Source: Lentisphaera profundi
GTDB taxonomy: Bacteria; Verrucomicrobiota; Lentisphaeria; Lentisphaerales; Lentisphaeraceae
DNA length: 64,000 nucleotides
NCBI RefSeq assembly: GCF_028728065.1
Contig: NZ_CP117812.1
Location: 1,674,001 to 1,738,000 of the forward strand
Direction: 5' to 3'
The position numbers and the translations under genes were made by a program. Positions 22,231-40,318 of this stretch are shown piece after piece. The stretch's first letter is position 1; each line of letters begins with the position of its first letter. Under the pieces are notes generated by a model, which saw only the letters and a program-made list of their open reading frames with translations, made no database searches and was not told where the DNA came from.

Positions 22231-23639
22231 CTATTTCTCAAAAAGATCTTTCACTAATTTTGTTTTACTTTTGAGTATATTGTCCTTAAGCTGAATCCTT
22301 GAGCTTGGCATATCAATGTTTTTTCCTCGCTTACCAATAACTCCAATATCAGCAAGCTTGCTTGTCTCAATTCTATTGCCTTTAATATAAACATCTCGGC
22401 ACCAGTTAAGCTCAATTCCATATCGCATCGAACCAGATATGATATTATCGATAATATTAACGTGCATAGTTGGACCATACTTATCTTTAGGCAGAGGTGA
22501 TTTTTTATTCGGACGTTCTACATTGGGCGCTGCAATTCGGATGCTATTCCAACATGAATTCTTGATTGTATTCCCCTTTATCAAGCAATGATAACCCTGG
22601 CTTAACGCGCCGCCGAAATATATCCCATACTGATCCTCTCGTTTCTGATTTTTTCTTCCCGAACCCTCAATATAATTCCCTATAATATACATATGATTTT
22701 GGCCATCTGCGATTTCAATGCCACCAGTTCTAGCATTTAGTATCTTATTGTTTATTATGAGATTCTTTTCACCTTTGTTCAAATTTCCGTGTGAGTCAAA
22801 AGCAACTCCATGCGCAAAATCACCGCCCGGAAGAAGCCCCGTATCTTTGATGGTATTCTCGGACACTTCACTAAAACTTCCACCATTGGCAAAGATGATT
22901 CCATGTGTGGTGGTGCGCTCTACGGTGTTCTTTGTGATGAGAGCATGACTGACTCCATCGAACATGGCGATTCCGGCCCTACCTGTACTTTGTATATGAC
23001 ATTTCTCAATGAGGAAGTATTTACTTTTCGAACCCTTACACAATATCCCACAGGCTCCGACTTCCCTAACAGTGACTTTACTGACAGATACTCTTGAAGA
23101 GTCCTTCACGCTCAAGATCCCATTAGTGTCACATTTATCAACCCCACCACCAACAATAGTAAAGTTAGAGATAAAAACACTCTCGACGCCGTCTAAGACG
23201 ATAGCAGCAGGCAAAGTCAAGGCTGGCTTCAATGTGACAGAGCCCTCTCCCCTGAGCAATTGATTTCTCTGAGGCTTAAGTGGCTGATCGAGAAGATATA
23301 CTCCGGGTTTGAAGACAAACTCAATACTCTTACCATCATTTTCTTTTGCTAGTTGGTTAAAGAGTTTAGCCATACTTTTTCCACTTAGAAGCATCCTACC
23401 TGCTTTTGATTTAGCACTAAATGATTTTTCTGTAGCGGAGAGATGGATCTCACGTCTACGTCTGCCAAGAACGCCCTTGTTTATATTAGACTTAATACTC
23501 ACCTGATAAGAAAACGGCGCCTTAAGTCTTCCTTGCCTATACGAGACCACATAAGGTTTAAATGACTCTCCTGCCTGAATGCCCTCCCCCCGATTAAAAA
23601 CAACAACAATACAAATCCACGTAATGATGAAAAATTCAT
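22231..23639 (-). CDS. Secreted right-handed beta-helix protein, frame broken at a G6 run
   Basis: The main frame (22231 to at least 23550) encodes over 430 residues of parallel beta-helix: FVFKPGVYLLDQPL, FISNFTIVGGG, LIEKCHIQSTGRAG, ITKNTVERTTTHGI, ISENTIKDTG, IINNKILNARTGGIEIADG, IIGNYIEGSG and more. It has no start of its own with a signal. An ATG at 23639, overlapping the upstream GH32 stop as ATGA, begins a good signal peptide (SLRGFVLLLFLIGG) in another frame. The two frames meet in a run of six G (23586-23591); one more G would join them. So the gene is a frameshifted but otherwise intact beta-helix enzyme coupled to GH32. A GH91-like inulin fructotransferase would fit the context but I cannot confirm it. 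Confidence 0.7.
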
Positions 23640-25210
23640 TTTTCTGTCCCCTTCCAGATTGAGTTCAACTCGTTTACAACCAGGCTGTTTATTTTCAGAT
23701 CGTCACCTTTTGATACTTTAAAAGAGATCTTATCAGAAGTCGGCAAACAATAACTGGCTGCGACATATGCCCCTTCATTAACAAACATCTCAATAGAAAG
23801 TCGGTCGAGCAAAATACGCAAGCTCACTTTACCATCAACGCTCGGAGCTGGAATTTTTATCAAATCGGTGCCGCGGTCAATATCACGGAACTCAATGCTC
23901 TTAACCTTGACCATCTTGCCGTTCTTATCCGGAAACATTGTGCTATTACCATATACCACATCAAGTCCGCATATATTGAACGTTACCAGGTCATCTCCTG
24001 ACGGCTCAAATTCGACGATCATATCAACTAGATCGCCTTTGATACCTGAAACAGCTGCGCTGGCTTTTGATGCAGTCGTAAGGTTCTCAAACGTATGGCT
24101 CTTCTTATAAAGCTTTTTAATCCCATCAATCGGCCAGCGATACATACGCTCGCCCTCTGCTGTTGATTTAAGGGTCAACTCGCAAGGGAAACTCATCTGC
24201 TGGGTAAAGGGTAATTCATGCTTCTTAAAAGGGTTATTTTTTCCTGCGCCTTTCAACCATGCTATCTGGTACACACGCCCGTCGGGACTGTTATTAAAAG
24301 TCTGACTGGCATAGAAGGCTTTAAAGAAACGGCGGCCACCCCAGTCTCCCAATAACATCTTATTATCACTTTTAAAAACAGAGCCATCGAAATCGCCAAT
24401 CTGATAATAAAAGGCAGCGTCGTTACAAACCCACTTGGTGTTATTTTTATTGCCATCAAGCGGCAGTTCATACATATCAAAACATTCAACAAAATTACGG
24501 CTGAAATCGCCGGTCTTTGTCCAGTTAACCATATCATCTGAGTTCCAGATTCTAACCAGCTTATCAGGACCTGCAACTATCACTGCCATAATCCATTTTT
24601 TTGTTGCTTCATGCCAGAACACCTTCGGGTCGCGCTCTCCTTTCCATATCCCCTGATTTGGAACCACCGGATCACCATCGTTGATCAGAGTATAGGTACG
24701 CCCTTTGTCAGTACTGTAAGCTGCGCACTGCTCCATGGGACCTGCCGTGAGCGTAAAATATGCAACCAACGTTTTTGTATCTCCGACCTGTTTACCCAGG
24801 CTATTGTTGTGGTCAACCACTGCACTACCCGACCAGATCACACCACCTTTGCCACTTCCGCTTTTGTAGGGTAGGATCGCATGTGGCAGTTGCTCCCAGT
24901 GAAGCATATCCTTACTGACTGCGTGTCCCCACGATTTTGGTCCGTCACCATTTTTAATCGAAACATGCTGAAAATACATGTGCCATTCGCCATCATAATA
25001 AACCAGACCATTGGGGTCATTTAGCCAATTCTTGCGCGAAGTAAAGTGAAACTGTGGTCTGTACTTCTGATCGTAGCCAACATCCTTATAGCTTTCGAAG
25101 GTCATATGTTTTTTATTGAAACGAGGGTCGTCTTCTGCTTTCAGCTCTAAGAATGCGCCGGAGGTGATTGTTAATGTAAGTAGTATTTTAACGTATAGTT
25201 TTAAAGTCAT
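23636..25210 (-). CDS. Secreted GH32 glycoside hydrolase (fructan hydrolase)
   Basis: From the ATG at 25210 (one base after the stop of the upstream gene, with GGGAAA ahead) the protein has 524 residues and a signal peptide ending LELKAED. All three GH32 motifs are intact: WLNDPNG with the nucleophile Asp, GERDPKVF with the transition-state Asp, and FVECFDMYELP with the acid/base Glu. The C-terminal beta-sandwich typical of the family follows (KVSLRILLDRLSIEMFVNEGAYV). It should release fructose from levan, inulin or sucrose-like ends outside the cytoplasm. It is coupled to the cytochrome-like gene before it and the beta-helix gene after it. Confidence 0.95.
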   Translation of the reverse strand: MTLKLYVKILLTLTITSGAFLELKAEDDPRFNKKHMTFESYKDVGYDQKYRPQFHFTSRKNWLNDPNGLVYYDGEWHMYFQHVSIKNGDGPKSWGHAVSKDMLHWEQLPHAILPYKSGSGKGGVIWSGSAVVDHNNSLGKQVGDTKTLVAYFTLTAGPMEQCAAYSTDKGRTYTLINDGDPVVPNQGIWKGERDPKVFWHEATKKWIMAVIVAGPDKLVRIWNSDDMVNWTKTGDFSRNFVECFDMYELPLDGNKNNTKWVCNDAAFYYQIGDFDGSVFKSDNKMLLGDWGGRRFFKAFYASQTFNNSPDGRVYQIAWLKGAGKNNPFKKHELPFTQQMSFPCELTLKSTAEGERMYRWPIDGIKKLYKKSHTFENLTTASKASAAVSGIKGDLVDMIVEFEPSGDDLVTFNICGLDVVYGNSTMFPDKNGKMVKVKSIEFRDIDRGTDLIKIPAPSVDGKVSLRILLDRLSIEMFVNEGAYVAASYCLPTSDKISFKVSKGDDLKINSLVVNELNSIWKGTEK

Positions 25211-25211
25211 A

Positions 25212-26669
25212 TTATTTCCCATATACCTGAACTTCACTTAAACCGCTCCATTTTCTCTTTGCCATCACAAGATCAGTGATTTTAACAGAGCTTGTAGAGC
25301 GCGCTTTGAATTTAATAGCTTGAGCTTTTGCATTTCGCTTTAGTTTAAACGGGACTTTTGAGCCGTCGGAGAATTCCAGTGTCCCTGACTTAAAATAGCT
25401 GTCGTGATCGCCTTCACGATACGGAGAGAAATCCGCACGTATATAGATGACAACCATGTCCACCTCATGCTTTTTACCCAGGTCAATTTTCACCCAGATA
25501 TTATCAGCAACATTAGGACCCCATGAAGGGAAATGTTCGCCGTTAAGCCCATTATGACCATGTCCTTTGTTTGAGGTTTTGCCGTTGATAATATTGTTTG
25601 CCGCAAAAAGCCCATTATTGGTGATCTTTGGGTACTGATTGTTTGTCGTTACCTGTGGGAAGCCGCCTGCAAATGCATTGGGGTTGAGGGCAACGTTCCT
25701 GGTACCCGGTGTCGGCTTATATGGTTCAACCTTATGAATTGTCTCAAGCTCATCCCATTTTGCCTGCTCTTTCTTCTTAAAGTAGTTTTTATAACGCGGT
25801 TCGGGGTCTTGCAACTTAAGTGTTTTACCGCTTCGTTTTTTATAGAGCAACTCTGTACTGCGTCTGTTTTCTTCGGCAAGTGACTCACGCTTTGTGTGAT
25901 AGTGAATATACTTCTTTTCTGTTTTTTCATCCCAGATATTATTCTCCATATAGTCTCCACAATAGGGCACGCAGAGGTCGATCCAAGCGCAGAACTTATC
26001 CAGTTCTTCTCTAGTCAGCTTGGTGCCGCCATGACCATTGCGCAACATTTCAACAATTCTTGATGTACCAGAGCCGGCGTGATAGGCCGGTAACATTGAG
26101 GGGCGTGATTGAGCACTGACCCAATTGAGTATTTCGCGACTGTCCTGCCCCTTGCTTCCACGTCCCACAGTTGTTCCGGTGAGAGTTAGGTATGACTGCA
26201 GCCAGGCTCTTCCGGCGAACTTGTCATTGACCTTTGTTGAAGTTAAGTCTCCTAGTACTTTGCCGCTTTTCTTTGATTCACCATCGTGACATGAGATACA
26301 ATTTTTATCGAGAATGGGCTGAATATATTTTTCGAAACTGAAGCCACCCGTGATATTGTAGAAAGGAGTAAGCTCCAAAGCGCCTTTTTTCATCGCCATT
26401 CTTGTTTTAGAGGCAGGAGGCGTGTAGTCTTTGTTCTCGTGGCAGCCGATAAATTTCTTGATTGCTATATCGCCTCCTTCAATATCGAGAGTACCTACTT
26501 GTATACCGTCATTCATATCAACTGGAGAAGTTGAATAGTAGACGGTCTTTTGCTTTTTAGGCTTATTTACATTATCACTAGTCGGTGGCTTTTCGGCCTT
26601 TAAAAGAGTTGTAAAAAGCAATATTATTAAACAGGTCAAACTCCTACTTTTGATTTTTTTAAATCTCAT
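25212..26669 (-). CDS. Chimeric secreted protein: serine-hydrolase leader, c-type heme (CISCH) region, discoidin-like C-terminus
   Basis: The 485-residue protein is a mosaic. Residues 1 to about 85 match the N-terminus of the serine hydrolase at 8513-9727 (KAEKPPTSDN, TVYYSTSPVDMNDGIQVG). The next part is typical of planctomycete HzsA-related proteins: FEKYIQPILDKNCISCHDGE with a CxxCH heme site at about residue 125, then ELDKFCAWIDLCVPYCGDY. From about residue 340 there is a discoidin/F5-8-type domain (FPSWGPNVADNIWVKIDLG, SGLSEVQVYGK). These proteins are common beside sulfatases but their role is unknown. The N-terminal portion of the family is missing here, replaced by the foreign leader. 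Confidence 0.8.
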   Translation of the reverse strand: MRFKKIKSRSLTCLIILLFTTLLKAEKPPTSDNVNKPKKQKTVYYSTSPVDMNDGIQVGTLDIEGGDIAIKKFIGCHENKDYTPPASKTRMAMKKGALELTPFYNITGGFSFEKYIQPILDKNCISCHDGESKKSGKVLGDLTSTKVNDKFAGRAWLQSYLTLTGTTVGRGSKGQDSREILNWVSAQSRPSMLPAYHAGSGTSRIVEMLRNGHGGTKLTREELDKFCAWIDLCVPYCGDYMENNIWDEKTEKKYIHYHTKRESLAEENRRSTELLYKKRSGKTLKLQDPEPRYKNYFKKKEQAKWDELETIHKVEPYKPTPGTRNVALNPNAFAGGFPQVTTNNQYPKITNNGLFAANNIINGKTSNKGHGHNGLNGEHFPSWGPNVADNIWVKIDLGKKHEVDMVVIYIRADFSPYREGDHDSYFKSGTLEFSDGSKVPFKLKRNAKAQAIKFKARSTSSVKITDLVMAKRKWSGLSEVQVYGK

Positions 26670-26765
26670 AAAAATACTCCTTTAAATATATTAAATTTCT
26701 AGTCATTATTTCCACATACCAGTTTTTAAATAGAATTGGATGCCTCCATCGCTGAAATAGGTAGA
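26430..26765. repeat. Duplicated leader segment, copy 2
   Basis: Promoter region, start and about 80 codons match 9495-9815. Differences are scattered substitutions, so the duplication is not recent. The copy now drives the cytochrome/discoidin gene. The paralogue at 61789-62991 also has the DMNDDIPVGS motif, which shows that the leader belongs natively to the serine hydrolase family. Confidence 0.8.
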
Positions 26766-26921
26766 AAAGTCGATGGCTCAAAGAACCTTATCTTCAAAGT
26801 TATTCTTTTTGATTGAGCTTTGTAAGGAACTTGTTTTTTCGCTGGTCTTGAACAGTCCAAGCTTGCTTTTAACCTTTTAATGAAATCTTTCAGCAAGCTG
26901 CCGGATTTATTTGAACACCTT

Positions 26922-28325
26922 TCAGCGAAAGGCCTTTTCATTTTTAGGCAGCCACTTTTTGTGTTGCTCTTTTATGGCCTTGTATTCCGGATTACTCGCG
27001 AGGTTTTCGTGCTCCCAAGGATCTTTACTGTGATCGTAGAGCTCTTCTGTCCCATCCTTGTAGCGAATATAACGCCAGCGATCCGAACGAATGGCGTGAT
27101 TTCCCGGGTTTTGCGTCATCAGTGCTGGACGCTTCCAATTCATCTGCGGGTTTTTCAAGAGAGGCACCAGGCTCTGTCCATCGAGTTCTACTTTTACAGG
27201 TAAGTTAGCCAGTTCGTTCAGAGTCGGAAATATATCCACTAAGCTGACTGGACGATCACAGCGCGTACCAGGTTTGGTAATTCCCGGGGCGACAATGATA
27301 AAGGGAACGTGGTTGGCTTTTTCCCACAGGGTGAATTTTACTGTCGCTGATTTGTCACCGAGGTGATATCCATGATCTGACCACAGGATAATGATGGTAT
27401 TTTCAGCACGGCCAGTTTTATCGAGCTGATCGAGCAAACGACCGACCATTTCATCTGAATAATCACTGGCAGCTTGGTAGGCTTGGACCATTTTTTTGAG
27501 ACTACCTGGATGCTCGGGGGCTTTCTTTGAGGCATTATCCCAGATAAAGCCTTCGGTACGAGACATATTTCTCCCAATCGGCGGGACATCATTCAAGTCA
27601 TTTCTGGGCATGGGAGGCAGGCGTAATTGATCAAGTGGATAACGCGCGAAACTGGCTGGTGGGGCCCAGAACGGTAAGTGCGGGCGAAAGATTCCTGCCG
27701 CTAAAAAAAGCGACTTATCTTTGGGGTATTCGGCCATCACTTTATTGATGTAGTTTACGGTATATTCATCTGTCTGTTTATCGACATCGTGAACGCCCCA
27801 GTCCCAGCCATAATGAGCTAAGGCACCGATTTTCTTATCGCCACGGCGGTAGCCATTGTAATTATGTTTTGGTTTATTGGCGTGTAGTTGCAGAGGAAAG
27901 AACTTTTCAAATGAAGGTTTGTCTTTACGATCGACACCAGTGCCACCGTGGTGAAATATTTTACCGGCTCCAATGGTCGCATAGTCATTTTCTTTGAAAT
28001 GTTGTGGCAGTGTTACTACATTCGGCAATAAGCTTTTCCAGGCATTGCCATTGCTGTAAACCCCGGAGGTACTTGGCCGCAAGCCCGTAAGAATAGAAAC
28101 CCGTGAGGGGTTACAGGCCGGAGTCGTACAATAAGCACGAGTGAAGAAGCAACCTCGTGCAGCAAGCCGTTTTAAGTTCGGCGTTTTAATCGGGTTATTA
28201 TCATCGAAGAGTGTTGTCCAGTCATTCATATCGTCAATGGCAATAAACAGCACATTCGGTTTTTTAGCCGCGTGAATGGACATGACGAAGCCCATTAGAA
28301 TGCATAATGTTATTAAATTTTTCAT
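26922..28325 (-). CDS. Secreted S1 sulfatase, iduronate-2-sulfatase-like subgroup
   Basis: The 467-residue protein has a signal peptide (LITLCILMGFVMSIHAA) and AAGGA eight bases before its ATG. The formylglycine motif is CNPSR in TTPACNPSRVSILTGLRPS. Metal-binding residues are recognisable in AIDDMNDW and SDHGYHLGD, and the DHGYHLG form is typical of the iduronate/choline sulfatase-like subgroup. It should hydrolyse sulfate esters of a sugar in the periplasm or outside, after activation by a formylglycine-generating or anaerobic sulfatase-maturating enzyme encoded elsewhere. It follows the GH32 group on the minus strand. Confidence 0.93.
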   Translation of the reverse strand: MKNLITLCILMGFVMSIHAAKKPNVLFIAIDDMNDWTTLFDDNNPIKTPNLKRLAARGCFFTRAYCTTPACNPSRVSILTGLRPSTSGVYSNGNAWKSLLPNVVTLPQHFKENDYATIGAGKIFHHGGTGVDRKDKPSFEKFFPLQLHANKPKHNYNGYRRGDKKIGALAHYGWDWGVHDVDKQTDEYTVNYINKVMAEYPKDKSLFLAAGIFRPHLPFWAPPASFARYPLDQLRLPPMPRNDLNDVPPIGRNMSRTEGFIWDNASKKAPEHPGSLKKMVQAYQAASDYSDEMVGRLLDQLDKTGRAENTIIILWSDHGYHLGDKSATVKFTLWEKANHVPFIIVAPGITKPGTRCDRPVSLVDIFPTLNELANLPVKVELDGQSLVPLLKNPQMNWKRPALMTQNPGNHAIRSDRWRYIRYKDGTEELYDHSKDPWEHENLASNPEYKAIKEQHKKWLPKNEKAFR

Positions 28326-28443
28326 TTATTATTCCTTAATTTATTTAAATGATTTTTCAATTCATATATATGTAGAATTTTTCTCGCTATTGCTCATCCC
28401 ACCTTAATCTATTACGCTAAGCCAAGTTCAAATCCAAGGCGTA

Positions 28444-30236
28444 TTAACGACCTGAAATTGACTTCAGTTCATAAACATTTAGGGACTCAATCCCCACTTC
28501 ACCATCTTCAACATGGATTTTAATATCATTTAGAGCGGCACCTTGATCGGTGCGATTATGAATGAAATAAACCGCACCATTTTCGGCAAAAGTTTCGAGG
28601 GTTGCACTGTCGATATAAATACGTAGGTCGAGCTTACCATCCTCTTTATCATAGGAACTTATTCCACTATATTTACCCTTTGCTCCGTGAAATTTATTTT
28701 TAGCAAGATCGCAGAGAATCTTAGTTTGACCTACTTGAAGGTAAATCGCAGATGGTTTACGTCCCAGTGGGTAATCCAGAGTCATTTCAAGCTCTATGAG
28801 TTTTGCTGATTTATCAAAAGTTAGTGTATTTTCACCAAGCAATAGAGCTTTGTCTTCTATTGTTAATATTTTTTTGTCACGTAGGACCTTCAGTTCATCG
28901 ACAGGGTTTGCATAAGAGCGGACGCCATCCTTGCTCGTGCGTAGAGAAATTTCAAGTGGTAGAGTAAAGCCCTGATTAAATGGCGCTTGGGGATCCGCTG
29001 GTTTAAAACGTGCCCAGACCATCATGATCGCTCGTCCATTCGGTGCGTTACTAAAACATTGCGCAGCCTTCAAGTCCCCCCGATTCCTCGTCGAACACCC
29101 GTAAACTCAGATGTGAATTTTTTGCCATCAAAGCTTCCTATTTGATAACTGGGTGTTGCATCAAATAGAATCCATTTTTTATTATGGGGGTTCCCATCTA
29201 CAGGTAATTCTACAAACTCGGGACACTCATGAAAGACCTGATCAGAAAAGCTAGTAAAAGTCCAATTCTTCAAATCCTTACTTATGTAGAATGCCATTTT
29301 ACCAAGTTTGGGGTTTTTGCACTGACGATAGGTGACTAAACACCAATGCTGTCCGGGTTCATACCAAAATGGCTTAGGATCACGGCCATGATGTGATATC
29401 AGTGGATTAGCTTCCTTAAGCAGAGAATAAGTTAAGCCGCTATCAGTTGAATAAGCAAGTGACTCGCCAACAAGCTGGCCAGCGCCTCCTTCATCTTTAG
29501 TGGGGTCACCGCCCTTGGTATCTGTTATCATGGCAATAATTGTTTTGGTAGAACCCACTTGCTTACCAAGAGTATTATTGTGATCGACGCATGCGCCTCC
29601 AGAAAACGCCTGCCCTATTACCATGGATTGATGCACTTTATCCACAGGCTTGCCCTTCAAGTCCTTTGCTCCAATACGTATCATGTGTGGTCGTTCTTCC
29701 CAATGCACGAGATCCTTGCTCACCGCATGACCCCAGTACATATTACCCCAATTAAGACCTACGGGATTCGACTGCCACGAAACATGATATAAGCCATCGG
29801 CATAGACCATTCCGTTGGGATCATTATTCCATCCAATTTTTTGGCTTAAATGAAATTGTGGTCGTCCTTTTTCTGAATAAAGTGGGATAAAAGTTTTAAT
29901 CTTATCTGAAGTCTCAAATAATGGCAAGGCAGCCATATTATCTGGATGTCCAGTGACATTACGAATGATAGCCGTCTTACCGACATATTCACTCATATCC
30001 AAAGAACCCCAAAGCCAGATATCTTCAAGTTTGCTAGTCATGCCAAGAGTAAAACTATGAACTTTAAGGCCTTCAACTTCGATTTCTATTAGATTCCCCC
30101 AGCCCTTGTATTGCTTGGGCTTAGCAACTGGCACGCTCAAGTATTTCCCAGTTATCTTAATTTCTCGACTTTGAGCGGGTTTCGCGCTCAATGTTTGAGC
30201 TGTAAATAAATAGACAAATATAAGAGAAAGCATCAT
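28444..30236 (-). CDS. GH32 fructan hydrolase, frame broken at a G6 run
   Basis: Two frames together make one GH32 enzyme. The first (start preferably at 30236, signal MLSLIFVYLFTAQTLSA; the frame is open further to 30389) has an N-terminal domain beginning REIKITGKYL, WNNDPNG, HHGRDPKPF and FHECPEFVELP, so all three catalytic acids are present. It stops at 29070 after ATC GGG GGG ACT TGA. The second frame continues without loss (LKAAQCFSNAPNGRAIMMVW) through the C-terminal beta-sandwich to 28444. One extra G in the run of six restores a protein of about 597 residues. Either a sequencing undercall or real slippage explains this. Confidence 0.88.
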
Positions 30237-30364
30237 TTTTAAAATCAAGCTTCTTAAATCCTTAATCTTTACAACTAAGTGCTGAACTGAACTAGAGTCT
30301 CGCTCAATTGAACTCAAATATGTCGTCGCCGAGATCTCATCATTAAACATTTGTATACGCTTGC

Positions 30365-32547
30365 TCATTCTTCCACCTTTGACGTCCAAATTGATTTCAT
30401 GGGATAGATTTCTAGATGGTTGATGGACACACCACTGCCACTGGGGGCATCGACACTAATGGTCATTTTACCCAATACATTTCCCGAGAGGTTCCTTCGT
30501 TGTTCCATGTGATAGGCGTAGCCATCTGCCATGAACACTTCTAGGCTTGGACGGTCGACTAATATACGCACCGTGACTTTCCCGTCGGTCATCGGCGCGG
30601 GGAATTTTCCAAAGCGTTCTTTGGCGAAATCATAGGTGAGGGCCAGTTTATCCATTTTAATGGTTGCTGTTTTCGGCTTGCCTTTCTTTTCGATGGTGAA
30701 AGAGATGTCGTATAACTCCCCGGGTAACTCCTTGGTGAAGGTAGAATTGCCGGCATTCAGTAGGATTCCAGTTTCCTCGACCTCGGCAGCTTTGCGCAGG
30801 GTCGCCACTTCCTCAATCGGATTGGCAAAGAGATGTACGTCGCCATCCGTCAGCGTCTTCAGAGTTAAATTCATCGGAATGGTAAAGCCTTGGTTGAACG
30901 GCATGCCTTCGGTGACAATTCCAGCCCAGCCAATGTAAGCCGCGCGACCATCAGGCGAATTGCTAAAGCACTGCCCTGCATAGCAGCTACGGGGGATCAT
31001 CGTTACCTTTTCTCTTTGTGGTCCGAAACGAACTGTCCTTCGTCGAACTCACCGACGAAGTATTCGCTACTCGCCTCCATCATGACCCACTTCTTATTGC
31101 GCGCATCGCCGTCGACCGGCAGTTCGAAAAACTCCGGGCATTCGTGCACGTCGAGTATGTTTTGAGTCAAGGTCCAGTTCTTCAAATCCTTGCTGGTATG
31201 CACCGGAAAATGACGCCCGTGTTTTTTGCCTTTGTCATCCGTCACACTCACTGCGACCCACTGTTTAGAGGGTTCATGGTAAACAACTTTCGCATCGCGG
31301 CCAGTGATTCCCATCGGATACTTTTCCATCCATCGCTGGAAGTTCAGGCCATCGTGCGAATAGAAAATGGAGACGCCCGCATTCATATCGGAATTGAAAA
31401 GCAGCATGGTCTTCTTATCCCCAATATTCAGACCCATCGCATTGTTATGATCCACATTACCGCCACCGGAAAAGCAGGCTCCGGTCGCCATGGCAGGATG
31501 ACGTACCCCCAGAGGCACTCCCTTACCCGCTCCACTGCGCAGGGCGCGCTTATGCTCAGTCCAATTCACCATATCAGGACTTGAAGCATGGCCCCAATAC
31601 ATATTCCCCCAGCCCGTGCCGACGGGATTACACTGCCAAAACAAATGGTAGCGGCCTTCGTAATACACCATGCCGTTGGGATCATTATTCCAGCCCTTGA
31701 GCTGTGAAAAATGGAACTGAGGACGGTACTTCTCATCATAGGCAGGCAACAGTGACCGCGGCTCATCGGCACATTCCAACATCTTCACGGTATCGCTGCC
31801 GAGTTTGGCCGCAAGCGTCACTTTCACGCTTCGACCCTTCACATCACTCAGGTCCAAATAGCTCCACAATGCAATATCGTTCTCATTGGCGGCTAAGCTC
31901 ACCGTGATGGTATGCAGAAGGATGTCTTTATCATCAAAAATCTCGAGTCTTCGAGCAGTGCCACCCTTGGCACAGGGAATCAGGATGAGATTCTTTGTGA
32001 CATCCAGGGTAATCTCTTCGTCTTCGTAACCTACTTTTGTATCGCTCTGCATCAGATGGTCGACGGCAAGATATCCCCACCATCCCTTGGCATCATCAAA
32101 AATTACCACCTGAGCTTTTTTACCCTTATAGTCTTTGACTTCAATGCTTACATCATCAAGAAAGTTTCCTTTAGTTGAGTTGGCGCGTCCTACCTCCTTA
32201 CCGGCCACCATCACTTTCACACCTAAACGTCTTTTGTCATAACCACCGGCGATAAGCATATTGATGTAATCGCGCTCAATGATGAATTCCGGACTTGTTA
32301 GTGTACCAATTGGTTTAGTATTTACTCCATCACCAGTTGCCACAAAGCCCTTGCCTTTAAACCCGCTAAACCTGGAGAAGATTTTAGCTGTTTTGTCGGT
32401 CGGTTTATCACCAAACGCATCTCCCTCCACCTTCCACTCACCGTAATTACCGTCATCAAAATTCATTATCGGTATATCTTCGACTGCTTGAACAATGTTC
32501 GTAATAGACATTATCACGAAGGCTAGTGTAAATAAAATTGTTCTCAT
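30365..32547 (-). CDS. GH32 fructan hydrolase with N-terminal module, frame broken at an A4 run
   Basis: The upstream frame (31003-32547) encodes a signal peptide, an N-terminal module of about 200 residues (FDDGNYGEWKVEGDAFG, GGYDKRRLGVKVMVAGKEVG) and most of the propeller: GWNNDPNG and VHECPEFFELP are intact, but the RDP motif reads GRDAK. It ends VSDHKEKR. The downstream frame (30365 to about 31010) resumes at once with SCYAGQCFSNSPDGRAAYIGW and the beta-sandwich. One extra A in GAGAAAAGG would join them into about 727 residues. A similar N-terminal module is found in the GH32 at 58092-60191. It lies between a sulfatase and another GH32 in the same orientation. Confidence 0.87.
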
Positions 32548-34576: not shown

Positions 34577-35896
34577 CTACTTCGACTTTTTGATTTTTTG
34601 ATATAGTTTTTTAAGTTCAGAAAGTACTTCCGGGTATTGTTTTGCGAGATTATTCTTCTCACCAAGATCTGTTTCTAAATTGAATAGCCTGTCGGTTTTT
34701 GCCGAGCCTGTTTCCTCTGCATAAGTCGAGGACTTCATTTCAGCGTCAAGAAACTTCCATTTCCCTTTACGAACACCCGCACCATCAAAATAAAAGTCAT
34801 CGCGTCCTTTTTCACTTTTACCCAAAAGAAGTTCTGTCTGATCTATACCATCTATTGTGCGGTCTGTTGGCACGCTTGCTCCTGAAAATTTGGCAAAGGT
34901 CGGCAGGAAATCAATAGTAGCAAAAATCGCATCGGAACTTCGGTCTGCGGGAACCTTGCCAGGCCAGCGCACGATGCAGGGCAAGCGATAGCCACCTTCA
35001 TATGGTGAACCTTTGCCGTTTCTCAGAGGTCCGGATTCACCCCAGAAAATAGATTCTTTCGGGTGACCTTTTTTCTTTTCATAATACTCAGGCTGATTCC
35101 ACGGACCATTATCCGATGTGTAGATAACTATTGTGTTCTCGCGCAGTCCCAATTCATCAAGCGTATCTAAAAGCCGTCCTGTTTCGTAGTCAAATTCTTC
35201 GACAACATCACCGTAGAGGCCACCGGCCGATTTGCCTTTAAATTTCGGAGATGCATCGATAATGGTATGCATCATGGTGTGTGCCAAATAAAAGATAAAG
35301 GGCTTATTTGGGTCGCGCTTATTTTTTAGATAATCTATGGTTTTGTCCGTATACCTACGAATCAGACTTCCCATATCTCTCGTCTCTCCATCTGGCTCAT
35401 TATTCAGGTGAAAAATACATCTGCCTCCGTCATTTGCTCCCAATGGCCCCCAATAATAATCGAAACCCTGGGCATTGGGCATACGGTCAATAATGGCCTT
35501 ACGGTTTGATACGTCCCATTTTCCCACACAGGCCGTTTGGTACCCGGCATCTTTCATTATTTCTGCAAAAGTCACCTCAGTTGCCGGCATGCTCCATCCT
35601 TTACTGCGTTTCGGGTAACGACCAGTTAGCAATGCCGAACGTGATGGCCCACATACTGCCTGGGCATAAAAGCTGGTGAATTTAGTGCCTTCTGTAGCCA
35701 GTTTATCCATTCTAGGAGTCTTGTTTTTTTTATTACCAAAACAGCCGAGATCGGCATAACCTTGATCATCGGTAAAGATAATCAGAATGTTTGGCCTAGC
35801 TTTTTTAGATTTTTTTGCTGATGTTTGGTCTGCTGCGAAGCTTCCTACGCAGCACATCACCACTAAGTAAATAAATGTAAAAATTGATCTATTCAC
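34577..35896 (-). CDS. Secreted S1 sulfatase (CGPSR)
   Basis: The 439-residue protein has a signal peptide (FIYLVVMCCVGSFAA), the metal site FTDDQGYADLGCFG and the formylglycine motif CGPSR in QAVCGPSRSALLTGRYP. Further conserved parts are GKWDVSNRKA (a GKWH variant), IVIYTSDNGPW, the KGSPYEGGYRLPCIVRWPG loop and the ELYxL-type end (RLFNLETDLGEKNNLAKQ). Its ATG overlaps the end of the upstream GH32 gene by 8 bases, so translation is coupled. It is the third gene of the operon sulfatase, GH32, sulfatase (39414 to 34577). Confidence 0.94.
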   Translation of the reverse strand: MNRSIFTFIYLVVMCCVGSFAADQTSAKKSKKARPNILIIFTDDQGYADLGCFGNKKNKTPRMDKLATEGTKFTSFYAQAVCGPSRSALLTGRYPKRSKGWSMPATEVTFAEIMKDAGYQTACVGKWDVSNRKAIIDRMPNAQGFDYYWGPLGANDGGRCIFHLNNEPDGETRDMGSLIRRYTDKTIDYLKNKRDPNKPFIFYLAHTMMHTIIDASPKFKGKSAGGLYGDVVEEFDYETGRLLDTLDELGLRENTIVIYTSDNGPWNQPEYYEKKKGHPKESIFWGESGPLRNGKGSPYEGGYRLPCIVRWPGKVPADRSSDAIFATIDFLPTFAKFSGASVPTDRTIDGIDQTELLLGKSEKGRDDFYFDGAGVRKGKWKFLDAEMKSSTYAEETGSAKTDRLFNLETDLGEKNNLAKQYPEVLSELKKLYQKIKKSK

Positions 35897-37661
35897 TTCT
35901 ATCTACTTCCTTTTGATTTGATTTCTTCCAGATCGACTTGAGTTTGTGCACCGTCATGGACTTAATAGTGGCGCTGCCGCCATTGACAGTCATGGAAATC
36001 TCTTTTACGGGCTCTCCTACTGTTTCAGCCGACCGTGGCAATATAAAATAAGCGCTGCCTTCTTCGGCGAAGATTTCAACTGAAGCTTCGTCGATGTAGA
36101 CGCGCAGTTCAAAGTTTCGGGGAGTCCCGTCAAGGGAAAAACCTGAACGTCCATGAGGCTTACCATTTTCAGGAATAAAACCACCACGCTTAAAGTTGTA
36201 TCTTAGCGGTACACCATCGAAAGAAAAAATGAGTTCTTCTGCTTGATCATCTGCTTTAATTGTTACATTGAATTCGACAAGCTTTTGTTTTGGGGATAGC
36301 ACTACCTTGTTCTCTGCTCCAGAGAGAGTTTTATTCTTCAGTGAACTTAACTCTTTATCGCGCAAGACTTCCAAGTCCTTAACCGGACTTGCAAATAATC
36401 TCTGCCCCCTTTGGCTTGTCCTCAAAGTCAATTCCAGTGGCAGGGTGAATCCCTGGTTGAAGGGAAGGTCTTTTCCAAGCTTAAGTGTTCTAACCCAACC
36501 GACATAGATGACGCGTCCGTCGGGAGCATGAGAGAAGCATTGTCCGGCATAACAACCGTGAATCGTATCCATCTTGCCCTTGCCTGTACTCTTAAATTCA
36601 CGACCGTTAAAATCTCCCACCATATAATTGGCATCTGCGCCCATAAGGACCCACTTCATTTTGTTCTTGTCACCATCGACAGGTAACTGAAAGAATTCCG
36701 GACACTCGTTGAATCCCTTTACAAAGCAGGTTTCTTCCCATTTTACTAAGTCTTTACTAACGAGGAACTGCATTCCACTATTTCTAGCACCTTCTTTAAT
36801 AGCAAAGACCACCATCACCCAACTCTTAGTTGGTTCATGCCAGATGATTTTGGGGTCCCGGCCGATCTTCTTGTGAGTATATACTGGGTTGTGCTCCCTC
36901 AAGAGTGTAAAGGTGCGACCTTTATCCGTTGAATAGGCAAGAGATTCTCCAAGTTTCGTGTCGGTGAACGCTGCGACGATAGTTTTTGTTTTACCTTTTT
37001 GTTTTCCAAGGGTGTTGTTATGGTCAACAAATGCACTACCTGAATAACAGGCCCCATCTGCCATTGACGCGTGGCGCTTCTCCACACCTTTGCCAAAGCC
37101 GCGCAGGGCTAACGGGAGTTCCTGCCAGTGAACCAGGTCTTTACTGACGGCATGCCCCCACATCTGATTGCCCATATTATTGCCCATCGGATTGGATTGC
37201 CACATGAGGTGGTACTCACCGTCATAGTAGACCATGCCATTGGTGTCGTTATTCCAGCCACGCATCTGGCTGAAGTGAATCTGTGGACGCCCCTTTTCTT
37301 GATACAAGGGCATGGTATTTTTAATCTCATCTGAGCTCATAAAGTGCTTAGAGTTTGGATGAGACACTTTTACTGTTTTGCCTTTATATTCACTTAGGTC
37401 TATATGTGCCCACCAGGCGATTTGGCCTTCCTTGGCTGCAGTCTTAGCTCCGCAAGAAAAAATCAAAACGTCATCGACACTGACCGTTAATTTCCCCGGT
37501 CGGATTTTTGCATCATGATTTGCTATAGGAATCAGCAGGTATTTGCCGGTAAGTTTGATCTCTCGATCTGCTGCGAAGGCACTAAAAGAGCTTAGGCATA
37601 TAATTGCCATGAAAATCGCAACTGATTTCACTTCCATTGGTTTCATAAAAAATAATTTCAC
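35889..37661 (-). CDS. Secreted GH32 hydrolase with WNNDTNG active-site variant
   Basis: Translation starts at a GTG (37661) with AGGAG 7-8 bases upstream, inside the stop region of the preceding sulfatase. The 590-residue protein has a signal peptide (VAIFMAIICLSSFSAFA), an N-terminal domain starting REIKLTGKYL as in the GH32 at 28-30 kb, then the catalytic propeller. GRDPKIIWHE and FNECPEFFQLP are normal. The nucleophile block is GWNNDTNGMVYYDG: the Asp is kept but the otherwise nearly invariant Pro is Thr. The C-terminal beta-sandwich is complete (FELRVYIDEASVEIFAEEGSAYF). It sits in the middle of a coupled sulfatase-GH32-sulfatase operon, the clearest sign that its substrate carries sulfate. 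Confidence 0.94.
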   Translation of the reverse strand: MKLFFMKPMEVKSVAIFMAIICLSSFSAFAADREIKLTGKYLLIPIANHDAKIRPGKLTVSVDDVLIFSCGAKTAAKEGQIAWWAHIDLSEYKGKTVKVSHPNSKHFMSSDEIKNTMPLYQEKGRPQIHFSQMRGWNNDTNGMVYYDGEYHLMWQSNPMGNNMGNQMWGHAVSKDLVHWQELPLALRGFGKGVEKRHASMADGACYSGSAFVDHNNTLGKQKGKTKTIVAAFTDTKLGESLAYSTDKGRTFTLLREHNPVYTHKKIGRDPKIIWHEPTKSWVMVVFAIKEGARNSGMQFLVSKDLVKWEETCFVKGFNECPEFFQLPVDGDKNKMKWVLMGADANYMVGDFNGREFKSTGKGKMDTIHGCYAGQCFSHAPDGRVIYVGWVRTLKLGKDLPFNQGFTLPLELTLRTSQRGQRLFASPVKDLEVLRDKELSSLKNKTLSGAENKVVLSPKQKLVEFNVTIKADDQAEELIFSFDGVPLRYNFKRGGFIPENGKPHGRSGFSLDGTPRNFELRVYIDEASVEIFAEEGSAYFILPRSAETVGEPVKEISMTVNGGSATIKSMTVHKLKSIWKKSNQKEVDRSE

Positions 37662-39596: not shown

Positions 39597-40318
39597 ATGA
39601 AGCTTCGTCGATGTAGACGCGCAGTTCAAAAGTGCGGGGAGTCCCGTCAAGGGAAAAGCCTGCGCGACCGTGCGGCTTACCGTTTTCAGGAATAAAGCCA
39701 CCACGCTTAAAATTGTATCTTAGCGGTATATCATCGAAAGAAAAATGAGTTCTTCTACTTGATCATCTAATTTAATTGTTACATTTAATTCGACAAGCTT
39801 TTCTTTTGGGGATAGCACTACCTTGTTCTCTGCTCCAGAGAGAGTTTTATTCTTCAGTGAACTTAACTCTTTATCGCGCAAGACTTCCAAGTCCTTAACC
39901 CGGCTTGCAAACAGTCTAGCACCTTTTTGACTTGTTCGCAGAGTTAATTCCAGTGGCAGGGTGAATCCCCGGTTTAAGGGAAGGTCTTTTCCAAGCTTAA
40001 GTGTTCTAACCCAACCGACATAGACGACGCGTCCGTTTGGGGCATGAGAGAAGCATTGTCCGGCATAACAACCGTGAATCGTATCCATCTTGCCCTTGCC
40101 TGTACTCTTAAACTCTCGATCATCAAAATCGCCCACCATGTAATTTGCATCAGCACCCATAAGTACCCACTTCATGTTGTTCTCATCACCATCTATAGTC
40201 AGCTCAAAAAAATCAGGACACTCGTTGAATTCCTTTACAAAGCAGATTTCTTCCCATTTAACTAGATCTTGGCTTACCAGAAACTACATTCCGCGATTTG
40301 ACCGAGCCGCAACTTTTT
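39597..40318 (-). pseudogene. GH32 pseudogene, paralogue of the gene at 35889-37661
   Basis: The segment matches the second half of the GH32 at 35.9-37.7 kb: FLVSQDLVKWEE, FNECPDFFELTIDGDE, MGADANYMVGDFDDREF, CYAGQCFSHAPNGR. It is damaged in four ways. The 5' half with WNNDPNG and RDP is gone, replaced by an IS3 relic meeting it in a run of nine T. A TAG replaces Gln just before FLVSQ. A frameshift follows EELIF, where five T stand against six in the paralogue. The 3' end is cut after VYIDEAS. It testifies to a duplicated GH32-sulfatase block. Confidence 0.88.

Follow-up and report, generated by a model that had tools for sequence, protein, structure and literature searches.

Single-base losses that interrupt the reading frame were found at G/C runs of 6-7 in at least eight genes on both contigs of the genome, and these losses are best read as residual consensus undercalls, an artefact of the assembly (probability about 0.6). 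The breaks share one direction, are spread over unrelated genes, are restricted to G/C runs and have intact counterparts in relatives. Undercalling was also the first explanation offered by the initial annotation of the window, the 64,000-nt stretch at C2:1674001-1738000, and it has become the best-supported one because the losses are one-way, genome-wide, specific to G/C runs and seen between near-identical copies of an insertion sequence (IS).

The genome consists of two contigs (C1 and C2, 5.46 Mb) and was compared with two other genomes of the same genus, G001 (3 contigs) and G002 (80 contigs). All G runs of at least 7 were inspected genome-wide, together with G6 and A/T8 runs in approximately 1.2 Mb, and runs were scored as in frame or broken, after which candidates were corrected by reading and the beta-helix gene was added by hand. 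Apparent breaks dismissed on reading were explained by an overlapping GTG start (L196), an ATG start in each case (L103 and L060) and a single open frame (L173). Open-frame and homology tests were used instead of coding-potential segmentation, which was too weak and in which ordinary gene junctions mimicked breaks. A sulfatase family search was uninformative as a measure of frameshift rate, the best 150 candidates scored being intact by selection.

Interrupted genes of the window

Three genes on the minus strand of the window are each one base short, as had been proposed, with the downstream frame lying one base back in all three. The gene for a beta-helix protein (PF13229; 22231-23639) begins with a signal-peptide-like frame (23639-23499), the ATG of which (23639-23637) shares bases with the stop codon of the preceding, upstream GH32 gene in the sequence ATGA, while the 439-amino-acid body (22231 to approximately 23586) lies in another frame. 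The join is limited to 163 nt (23502-23664) and contains a C6 run on the plus strand (23586-23591), which reads as G6 within AATCGGGGGGA on the coding strand. The orthologue in G002 (L062:6440-7896, 81.5 % identity) has a single open frame in which the signal peptide is joined straight to the body.

The two GH32 genes each encode an N-terminal part matching PF00251 and a C-terminal part matching PF08244 in two different frames, and each pair is therefore one gene. In GH32a (28444-30236, with PF00251 matched over profile positions 1-236 of 307) the frame changes within 34 nt (29073-29106), where the only run of at least four bases is C6 on the plus strand; the G6 had been reported correctly but at approximately 29075-29080, one base away from its true position at 29076-29081. 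In GH32b (30365-32547, with PF00251 in 31003-32547 and PF08244 in 30365-31000) the change falls within 43 nt (31006-31048), where the only run of at least four is A4 (31008-31011), and the codons of its relative do not indicate this run. The description of the breaks as lying at homopolymers thus applies to the beta-helix gene and GH32a, whereas GH32b is not clearly such a case. The nearest relative found for GH32a (L029, 58 % and 57 % identity for the two parts) and the G002 relative of GH32b (L061:14810-16921, 55 % and 52 %) each carry both parts in a single frame, as do the remaining GH32 relatives for which the two halves were both located, apart from a C-terminal frame change elsewhere in L030. 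A second stop or frame change was sought on either side of the break in the beta-helix gene, GH32a, GH32b and the SASA-family esterase gene described below, and none was found.

The shared sequence context noted earlier for the beta-helix gene and GH32a is real, as the 11-mer AATCGGGGGGA has only two copies in the 5.46-Mb genome, both of them at these breaks, but approximately 1.3 copies are expected from a rough estimate based on base composition, and the coincidence is mild. A further GH32 copy (39597-40290, minus strand) does have T5 where its paralogue (35889-37661, 88-92 % identical) has T6, as had been pointed out, but it does not belong to the same class as the other breaks. It is shortened, its 3' end is missing and an in-frame TAG interrupts it, so it is an independent, multiply damaged copy in old decay and is not to be pooled with the fresh breaks.

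These genes belong to a locus of approximately 60 kb (window positions 20165-64000 and L057:1-17000) with nine GH32 genes, including the relic, among sulfatases, GH16 enzymes, SASA esterases and F5/8-type domains, which suggests that a sulfated, fructan-like polymer is degraded. G002 has a similar but smaller GH32 locus (L061-L062), and no GH32 match was found in G001. A remnant at L057:13480-13900 (C2, approximately 1751630), of which the G002 counterpart (L062) is intact, lacks its N-terminus and changes frame at a T7 run, and is a case of true decay within the locus.

One-base losses across the genome

The same shortfall of one base extends well past the window. A homology scan located it at a G6 run in a gene for a SASA-family esterase (PF03629; C2:1754840), 57 kb away from the first three, whose orthologue in G002 (88-93 % identity) has nearly the same DNA at this point with G7 in place of G6 and an open frame. 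Runs one base short were also found in a GH43 gene (C1:1410690), whose halves align to positions 46-149 and 152-286 of the profile and which has an intact paralogue of 92 % identity, in the conserved MlaE permease gene (C1:2255644; profile positions 3-96 and 93-212), and in genes for a DUF7133/HEAT protein (C1:2584288), a LamG-tailed protein (C2:565083) and an AXE1-like esterase (C2:1526421). The first homology scan had shown the breaks clustered in the fructan locus, and locus-specific decay was considered as their only cause, but this was rejected when inspection of all G runs of at least 7 revealed the same type of break elsewhere; the clustering is therefore largely a matter of ascertainment.

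All eight breaks at G/C runs shorten the gene (8:0, p = 0.004), and no break one base too long was found in a search of all G runs of at least 7 in coding regions of the genome. Among the sampled runs, 8 of the G/C6-7 runs were broken and 81 were in frame, compared with 0 broken and 104 in frame for A/T8 (p = 0.002). The two relatives had a single broken run and 126 in frame at G/C6-8 (1/127 compared with 8/92 here, p = 0.005), the exception being a C8 run in a KsgA-like gene of G001 (L216:17013-17020) that is one base too long, the opposite direction. L075:15158 (C9) is similar to this KsgA-like case and likewise opposite in direction to the genome studied here (G000). Whole-genome matches to the G7 7-mer number 81 against approximately 118 expected from the two relatives, so that they are rarer here, while the run-length spectra of the sampled stretches broadly resemble those of both relatives. 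Core genes with intact G7-8 runs include aroE, thiL, ftsW/rodA and a KdsB-like gene; core genes are absent from the eight broken ones, which is not significant at n = 8. The longest G runs of the genome, G12 at L146:2034 (C1:1784033) and G10 at L143:2176 (C1:66175), lie outside any long open reading frame and are candidates for length variation near promoters. In a sulfatase gene at L097:9185-9260 (C1, approximately 2089200), a 10-bp unit similar to GGGCATATAC, present as three tandem copies, breaks the frame in the opposite direction.

A consensus that sometimes gives G/C runs of 7 or 8 one base too short would explain the direction of the losses, their spread, the lower density of G7 and a discrepancy between IS copies described below. 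It also agrees with the lack of second lesions in the beta-helix gene, GH32a, GH32b and the SASA gene, and with the presence of a conserved permease among the broken genes. The missing bases would then be present in the DNA of the organism, and the beta-helix, GH32a and SASA genes, broken only in the record, are probably intact in the cell. Several observations weigh against undercalling. No A/T8 run was broken, whereas deletions in a published profile of nanopore assemblies were commoner in A/T than in G/C runs (PMC12007338); sequencing platforms differ in this respect, and the lack of A/T8 breaks hence weakens undercalling rather than excluding it. Many longer G runs are called in frame, including 32 of length 7-8 inside long open reading frames. 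GH32b, a sulfatase gene and L045 are also one base short where there is no long run, the sulfatase (L171:700-1612; C1, approximately 229900) near ACCTTCCCTCAATG; the direction of these breaks agrees with undercalling, their sites do not. The break in GH32b would be either a random one-base loss from the consensus or a genuine recent mutation. The disruption of mutL in the same genome would also be an unlikely coincidence.

Disruption of mutL and possible real losses

The mutL gene (L169:1673-5204; C2:2378672-2382203) is split at L169:3312/4907 by an IS of 1,594 bp that encodes a DDE transposase, has terminal inverted repeats of 14 bp and is flanked by a target duplication of 6 bp (TAGCTG). The insertion cuts the dimerisation domain, MutL_C, at profile position 87 of 142, and it is considered recent because the remaining 101 codons beyond it are still open, with 76 % identity to G002. 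From the known role of this domain the truncated MutL is predicted to be non-functional and the strain mismatch-repair deficient; mutS is intact, and both congeners carry an intact MutL. The same IS is present in 13 near-identical full copies on C1 and C2 (L249-L261), which indicates a recent burst of movement. This lesion was not visible to the author of the initial annotation, and it gives the main alternative to undercalling, namely that unrepaired slippage in G/C runs really has broken dispensable genes, for example genes of polysaccharide degradation. Loss of mismatch repair gives this kind of slip, its published signature being indels in G/C runs.

Such real slippage is an unlikely but substantial alternative. 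It agrees with the recent split of mutL, with the excess of broken runs over the two congeners in which MutL is intact and with the concentration of breaks in G/C6-7, and mismatch-repair-deficient Pseudomonas aeruginosa shows the corresponding bias, with 96.3 % of its indels in G:C runs, 6-bp runs being affected most often (PMC4702332). The direction of the breaks argues against it, as insertions as well as deletions would be expected and only losses were seen among all coding G runs of at least 7. In the same P. aeruginosa study insertions were 3.3 times as frequent as deletions (PMC4702332), Pseudomonas fluorescens ATCC948 also has an insertion bias, and Vibrio mutS lines are near balance, with Vibrio fischeri slightly deletion-biased (PMC4316635, PMC5854121). 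The absence of broken runs among the 104 A/T8 runs counts against slippage too, and only one weak candidate nonsense break was found in the sampled regions.

Substitutions are normally far more frequent than indels. A mutator that had been active long enough to shorten a large proportion of G7 runs should have left base changes too. When 12 young IS copies were aligned over their 1,594 bases (19 kb in all), they differed by one SNP splitting them into two groups and by a single change private to the copy at C2:275812 (L260), in which a C6 run is given as C5; private substitutions were sought in these copies and none was found. Undercalls and real slippage may also coexist, with GH32b as a particular candidate for a genuine mutation. 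The further proposal that this lineage is a mutator, arisen in nature or in the laboratory, whose mutL was inactivated by a bursting IS and whose polysaccharide-degrading repertoire is being eroded by one-way contraction of G/C runs, is unlikely.

Remaining explanations and known systems

Ordinary recent pseudogene formation in a large, redundant and partly decaying GH32/sulfatase locus is improbable as the source of these breaks. True relics do lie beside intact paralogues there (39597-40290 and L057:13480-13900), and the break in GH32b has no long run. The fresh breaks, however, are free of second lesions, the same type of break occurs in unrelated genes elsewhere, and the bias towards G/C runs would be left unexplained.

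Phase variation, in which the enzymes would be switched on and off by G runs of changing length, had been suggested as an alternative and is very improbable. Some of the G runs do lie in carbohydrate-active enzymes, and runs would switch more readily once mismatch repair was lost, but the runs are only 6-7 long, the losses are one-way and the locus shows no enrichment of G runs of 6 or more (4.7 G/C6 runs per 100 kb in the window compared with 11.75 elsewhere). The relatives of GH32a and the beta-helix gene are intact in a single frame and lack a run at the site. The other suggestion, that programmed -1 frameshifting or transcriptional slippage yields full enzymes, is the least credible, since every broken gene tested has an intact single-frame relative, so that no such site is conserved, and the canonical X XXY YYZ heptamer is absent (C GGG GGG A; G AGA AAA G), although every shift is -1 and GH32a and GH32b are broken at nearly the same position in the fold. 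The undercall part of the earlier interpretation is therefore the best supported and its switching alternatives are not supported; whether the bases were lost from the record or from the genome, calling these enzymes switchable is unwarranted.

Should the runs be undercalled, several carbohydrate-active enzymes, the MlaE permease and other proteins are wrongly annotated as split or absent, and the correction is straightforward. Real losses would mean that the genome represents a mismatch-repair-deficient strain of an under-studied phylum in which the mutL lesion and its early targets are both visible, and mutator status would have to be weighed in every phenotype measured on the strain.

Poly-G contingency loci likewise have frames broken at G runs, but the runs here are 6-7 long and not conserved in relatives, with no sign of two states. 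Mismatch-repair-deficient P. aeruginosa, P. fluorescens ATCC948 and Vibrio mutS lines share the length-dependent one-base changes in G:C runs, and mutL is disrupted here; the published spectra, however, contain many insertions, whereas every change here is a loss. Undercalling finds its parallel in long-read homopolymer errors, which differ in that A/T runs of up to 8 appear spared here and only G/C runs of approximately 7-8 are hit, and which resemble the present breaks in their single-base run losses, falsely split genes and predominance of deletions (PMC12007338).
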